A stretch of 64,000 nucleotides of DNA, taken from Nitrosomonas eutropha (GTDB taxonomy: Bacteria > Pseudomonadota > Gammaproteobacteria > Burkholderiales > Nitrosomonadaceae). How positions within the stretch are numbered: position 1 is the stretch's first letter; the number at the start of each line of letters is the position of its first letter. Positions 62,653-62,734 of the stretch are shown piece by piece. The notes beneath the pieces are model-generated. The model searched no databases. It was not told where the DNA came from and was given only the letters and a program-made list of their open reading frames with translations. The translations under genes and the position numbers were made by a program. Where the stretch lies: assembly GCF_003201195.1 (NCBI RefSeq), contig NZ_QICQ01000008.1:26191-90190 (forward strand). Direction: 5' to 3'.

Positions 62653-62734
62653 CCCCCCCCCCCCCCCCCCCCCCCCCCCCCCCCCCCCCCCCCCCCCCCC
62701 CCCCCCCCCCCCCCCCCCCCCCCCCCCCCCCCCC
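62653..62734. repeat. Homopolymer run of 82 C (82 G on the minus strand)
   Basis: An uninterrupted run of C, flanked by TCA on the left and GGGTGA on the right so that TCACCC and GGGTGA form inverted ends. Such a run is outside anything normal in a bacterial genome. It may be real (quadruplex/i-motif capable, and length unstable) or a sequencing or assembly artefact. It lies between the cold-shock terminator and an IS21 remnant. Confidence 0.95.

Follow-up and report, generated by a model that had tools for sequence, protein, structure and literature searches.

In the window, by which we mean the whole 64,000-nucleotide stretch of DNA analysed here, positions 62653–62734 of the plus strand consist of exactly 82 uninterrupted C residues, a direct count that confirms the tract described in the initial annotation. 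We consider it very probable, at roughly 85%, that this run arose as an error of reading or assembly within a single genuine locus and is not a real feature of the chromosome. This interpretation draws on pattern scans of the genome and the genus, on control runs from other assemblies and on alignment to the relative that best matches this locus (G063), and it rests on three results: the tract is an isolated outlier among the run lengths of its genome, the same locus in G063 is co-linear without the tract, and comparable runs elsewhere occur at contig ends, at gaps or in broken sequence. If the run is an artefact, the bases between two truly neighbouring flanks would have been poorly read, and the actual length of the C run at this site, which is not readable from the assembly, would be a few bases to perhaps 20.

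The tract is bordered by GGTAATTCA on its left and GGGTGATCC on its right. Elsewhere in the window, neither C runs nor G runs exceed six bases. There is no N in or around the tract, and no further C or G run of eight bases or more lies within 150 bases of it. On the left, as the initial annotation had proposed, is a cold-shock protein gene of 67 amino acids (62337–62540, plus strand; Pfam CSD, E = 6.4e-32) that is matched in relatives, and the tract starts 112 bases past its stop codon. Within the left flank (62541–62652, plus strand), between this gene and the tract, we placed by eye a terminator-like hairpin followed by a T run (about 62563–62590, plus strand), with a similar element in four aligned relatives. 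Beyond the right flank (62735–62826, plus strand), an IS3-family transposase gene (63170–64000, minus strand) starts about 435 bases from the tract; the contig, C8, ends at this gene, at window base 64000, which is 1,266 bases from the tract.

Several other elements were seen in the same region. An Rfam scan of 61400–64000 returned nothing besides one tRNA (61556–61629), and just past this tRNA is a perfect 34-base self-complementary stretch (61640–61673). Left of the cold-shock gene, about 87 bases (62006–62092) belong to a small dispersed repeat with five other full or partial copies in the genome at 84–92% identity (two in C22 and one each in C53, C3 and C58). Beside the IS3-family gene, 62991–63100 matches contig C13 of G000 (20011–20124) at 82%, with shorter matches in G068; judging by these similarities, it is possibly an old mobile-element remnant.

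The genome is a draft of 2,668,035 bases in 85 contigs, and it contains a single match to the ammonia monooxygenase family PF02461 (E = 1.2e-113), which therefore identifies it as that of an ammonia oxidizer, presumably a Nitrosomonas. A 14-C pattern searched on both strands of the whole genome gave 69 matches, all within the 82-C tract. No other C or G run reaches 14 bases, and base composition alone would lead one to expect 0.007 runs of 14 or more. Runs of ten bases or more number seven, compared with 2.1 expected from the base composition of the window. The six that remain besides the tract are 10–11 bases long, and each of them lies within one or more open frames of at least 90 codons. 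With no run between 11 and 82, the tract stands apart from the rest of the distribution. We considered, and dropped, the idea that the genome carries a whole family of natural C tracts. Runs of eight bases or more number 29, where the window's base composition predicts 38, and the other long runs reach only 10–11 bases. An alternative explanation is that the strain carries a real poly-C of about 82 bases, grown by slippage or added in repair. The clean flanks, free of N and of other runs, would suit such a tract, but the jump in run lengths from 11 to 82 argues against it, and we regard it as very unlikely.

The second result comes from the genus, represented by 85 genomes, this one included, of which we searched the 84 others with the flanks. 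The left flank found matches in nine of the 84, eight of which were weak (G026, E = 0.006) or limited to the terminator region. G063 matched the left flank at 88% over 84 bases, and it matched window positions 62146–62624 at 90% identity. This match ends at 62624, leaving 28 bases without a clear counterpart before the tract, and 62755–62826 is homologous to sequence 3' of the same gene in G063. Only 22 bases separate the counterparts of 62624 and 62755 in G063, with no C tract, whereas the window has 130 bases at the same place (28 bases, the 82 C and a further 20). The 20-kb G063 stretch has C or G runs of up to six bases and none longer. The homology of 62755–62826 was obtained by targeted alignment with a local score of 46, a score that none of 1,000 first-order Markov samples reached (best 31); the best score among 122 other windows of the same G063 stretch was 26.

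Because G063 is co-linear across the site, both flanks form a single locus, with the tract added inside it. The site is thus without a tract in one co-linear relative, G063 being the only one of the 84 other genus genomes in which co-linearity across the site was shown. Sequence comparison with this relative, including a weak 72-base match on the right, supports the view that the flanks are true neighbours. The same co-linearity, and hence the reality of the locus, is equally a point in favour of a genuine 82-C tract.

A misjoin of unrelated loci was initially favoured for the near-matchless right flank. Genus searches with this flank did not report the G063 homology at an E value of 0.01 or better; the longer interval 62735–63140 gave one 42-base piece among 60 relatives (G020), short pieces in three of the 84 other genus genomes and no match in plasmids. 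Such a misjoin would have linked two unrelated contigs, one of them a 1,266-base stub, through poly-C. It would be in keeping with a right piece that is short and ends in the IS3-family gene at the contig end, with the 28 bases left of the tract that have no clear counterpart in G063, and with a right-flank homology that is invisible in genus searches. We dropped this explanation once G063 proved co-linear, and we now hold it to be most unlikely, as 62755–62826 aligns to the G063 sequence that immediately follows the cold-shock gene, with a score of 46, beyond the maxima of the shuffles (31) and of the other windows (26). The initial annotation had allowed that the tract, if not real, marks a join between the cold-shock locus and IS debris; the artefact finds support here, but the join does not, since the sequence at 62755–62826 has its match downstream of that same gene. 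An adapter or chimeric read, which might have been betrayed by another genomic copy of the 19 bases just before the tract, was also considered and rejected: the one exact match in the genome is the site itself, and two further matches with three mismatches compare with one match for the reversed control pattern.

The third result concerns long runs in other assemblies. Runs of 18 C or more were found in three of the 85 genus genomes, this one included. In G070, a run of 71 stops 16 bases before the contig end. In G102 (L171, 1501–1827), two 33-G runs bracket an N10 gap with G/T-rich broken sequence between them, and this site is a gap in the assembly whose edges are of low quality. C18 is absent from all 14 genus genomes of four contigs or fewer, which weighs against a real 82-C tract, although the difference from the remainder (3 of 71) proves nothing by itself.

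Scanning genome contigs for 40 C returned at least 119 stretches, and 80 of these, all of which were examined, held 86 runs of 40 bases or more. Flush with a stretch end were 43 of the 86, another 29 were within 100 bases of one and 14 were interior; the stretches resemble 8,000-base contig tiles, and their ends were taken as contig ends. The sense of the 72 runs at or near ends was that expected of false G tails in 54 cases and the opposite in 18. Illumina adapter sequence occurred within 150 bases of eight runs in six stretches. Each of the 14 interior runs had, within 150 bases, an N or another C or G run of at least ten bases. One of them, L064, nevertheless has the look of a naturally occurring C-rich repeat, and long runs are therefore not necessarily false in every case. 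A single chromosome record (L083) was present among the 80 stretches listed and has N beside its run, a further point against a real tract of 82. On the whole, comparable runs elsewhere look like assembly debris. The tract itself lies 1,266 bases from its contig end, a point in favour of an artefact; its flanks, with no N and no nearby runs, are cleaner than those of all 14 interior controls, a point against one.

How might an artefact of this kind have arisen? One possible explanation is that unknown bases were turned into G or C by a two-bit-packing assembler or gap closer, bridging a short gap close to the contig end. Some assemblers and gap closers that store bases in two bits turn N into G. 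Only one long run exists in the whole assembly, however, and systematic N conversion would therefore have acted once, which counts against this route. Another possibility is that such a gap was bridged by reads of the minus strand ending in poly-G tails. In two-colour Illumina chemistry, a lost signal is called as G and can give poly-G to the end of the read, as described in PMC13218037. When the minus strand is read, the right flank gives GGATCACCC followed by G, which is the sense expected of a false G tail. The tract resembles the artefact described there in being a long, pure minus-strand G run near a contig end and in having the sense that is commonest among the controls; it differs in not being at the very contig end and in being clean on both sides. 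A poly-G tail also accounts for the right edge only, which is evidence against this route on its own; the left edge would need a further step, for instance gap closing or an overlap at a short stretch of genuine C.

A variant within the artefact explanation covers both edges. In this variant, a real C tract of roughly 8–20 bases would have been lengthened in assembly by poly-G reads, the true C run forming the left edge and false G tails the extension. The six other runs of 10–11 bases in the genome favour this possibility, but G063 has no C run at the site and nothing longer than six in its 20-kb stretch. We count its odds within those of the artefact and, taken separately, think it rather unlikely.

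The tract also has inverted edges, TCACCC and GGGTGA, which were pointed out in the initial annotation and are indeed present, with three of the six left-arm bases being the tract's own C. Arms of at least six bases arose by chance in 306 of 241,052 random edge pairs from the window (0.13%), and they were also seen in 4 of the 42 control tracts that have two flanks. When the C run is cut to three, the edges form a perfect 12-base palindrome, TCACCCGGGTGA, centred on CCCGGG. It is possible that this palindrome made the spot hard to read; it could also seed slippage, as a real 82-C tract would require. The inverted edges are mildly unusual and were spotted after the fact, and we treat them as a minor observation.

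The slim chance that the tract is genuine would imply a run of about 82 bases, seeded at the CCCGGG-centred palindrome 3' of the cold-shock gene and hypervariable in length. According to PMC6321876, which covers 77 Campylobacter genomes, the poly-G/C tracts of these bacteria are most often 9–10 bases long and rarely reach 13–15, which speaks against a real tract of 82. Were it real, and we doubt strongly that it is, the tract would exceed these Campylobacter tracts several times. Like the phase-variable tracts in that study, it is a C/G homopolymer near a gene. Unlike them, it is 82 bases long, against the usual 9–10 and a phase-variable range of 7–15, and it is single in its genome, absent in G063 and located 3' of a gene and its presumed terminator. 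With regard to a frame or promoter, the tract lies past the cold-shock stop codon, by the 112 bases given above, and the sole frame over it is a mechanical open reading frame of 56 amino acids (62650–62820, minus strand), whose poly-glycine tail comes from the C run. The suggestion of a quadruplex or i-motif locus, or of a length-variable site, gained nothing in its support, as G063 lacks the tract and the Campylobacter tracts are far shorter. In the literature, as surveyed by titles and the openings of abstracts, we recognized no bacterial G/C homopolymer near 80 bases.

These results serve as a warning for the interpretation of this locus. Automatic annotation could list the poly-glycine open reading frame as a gene, and neither such a reading frame nor an i-motif called here is to be trusted at face value. 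If the 82-C tract were true, it would challenge the view that bacterial chromosomes do not keep long G/C homopolymers.
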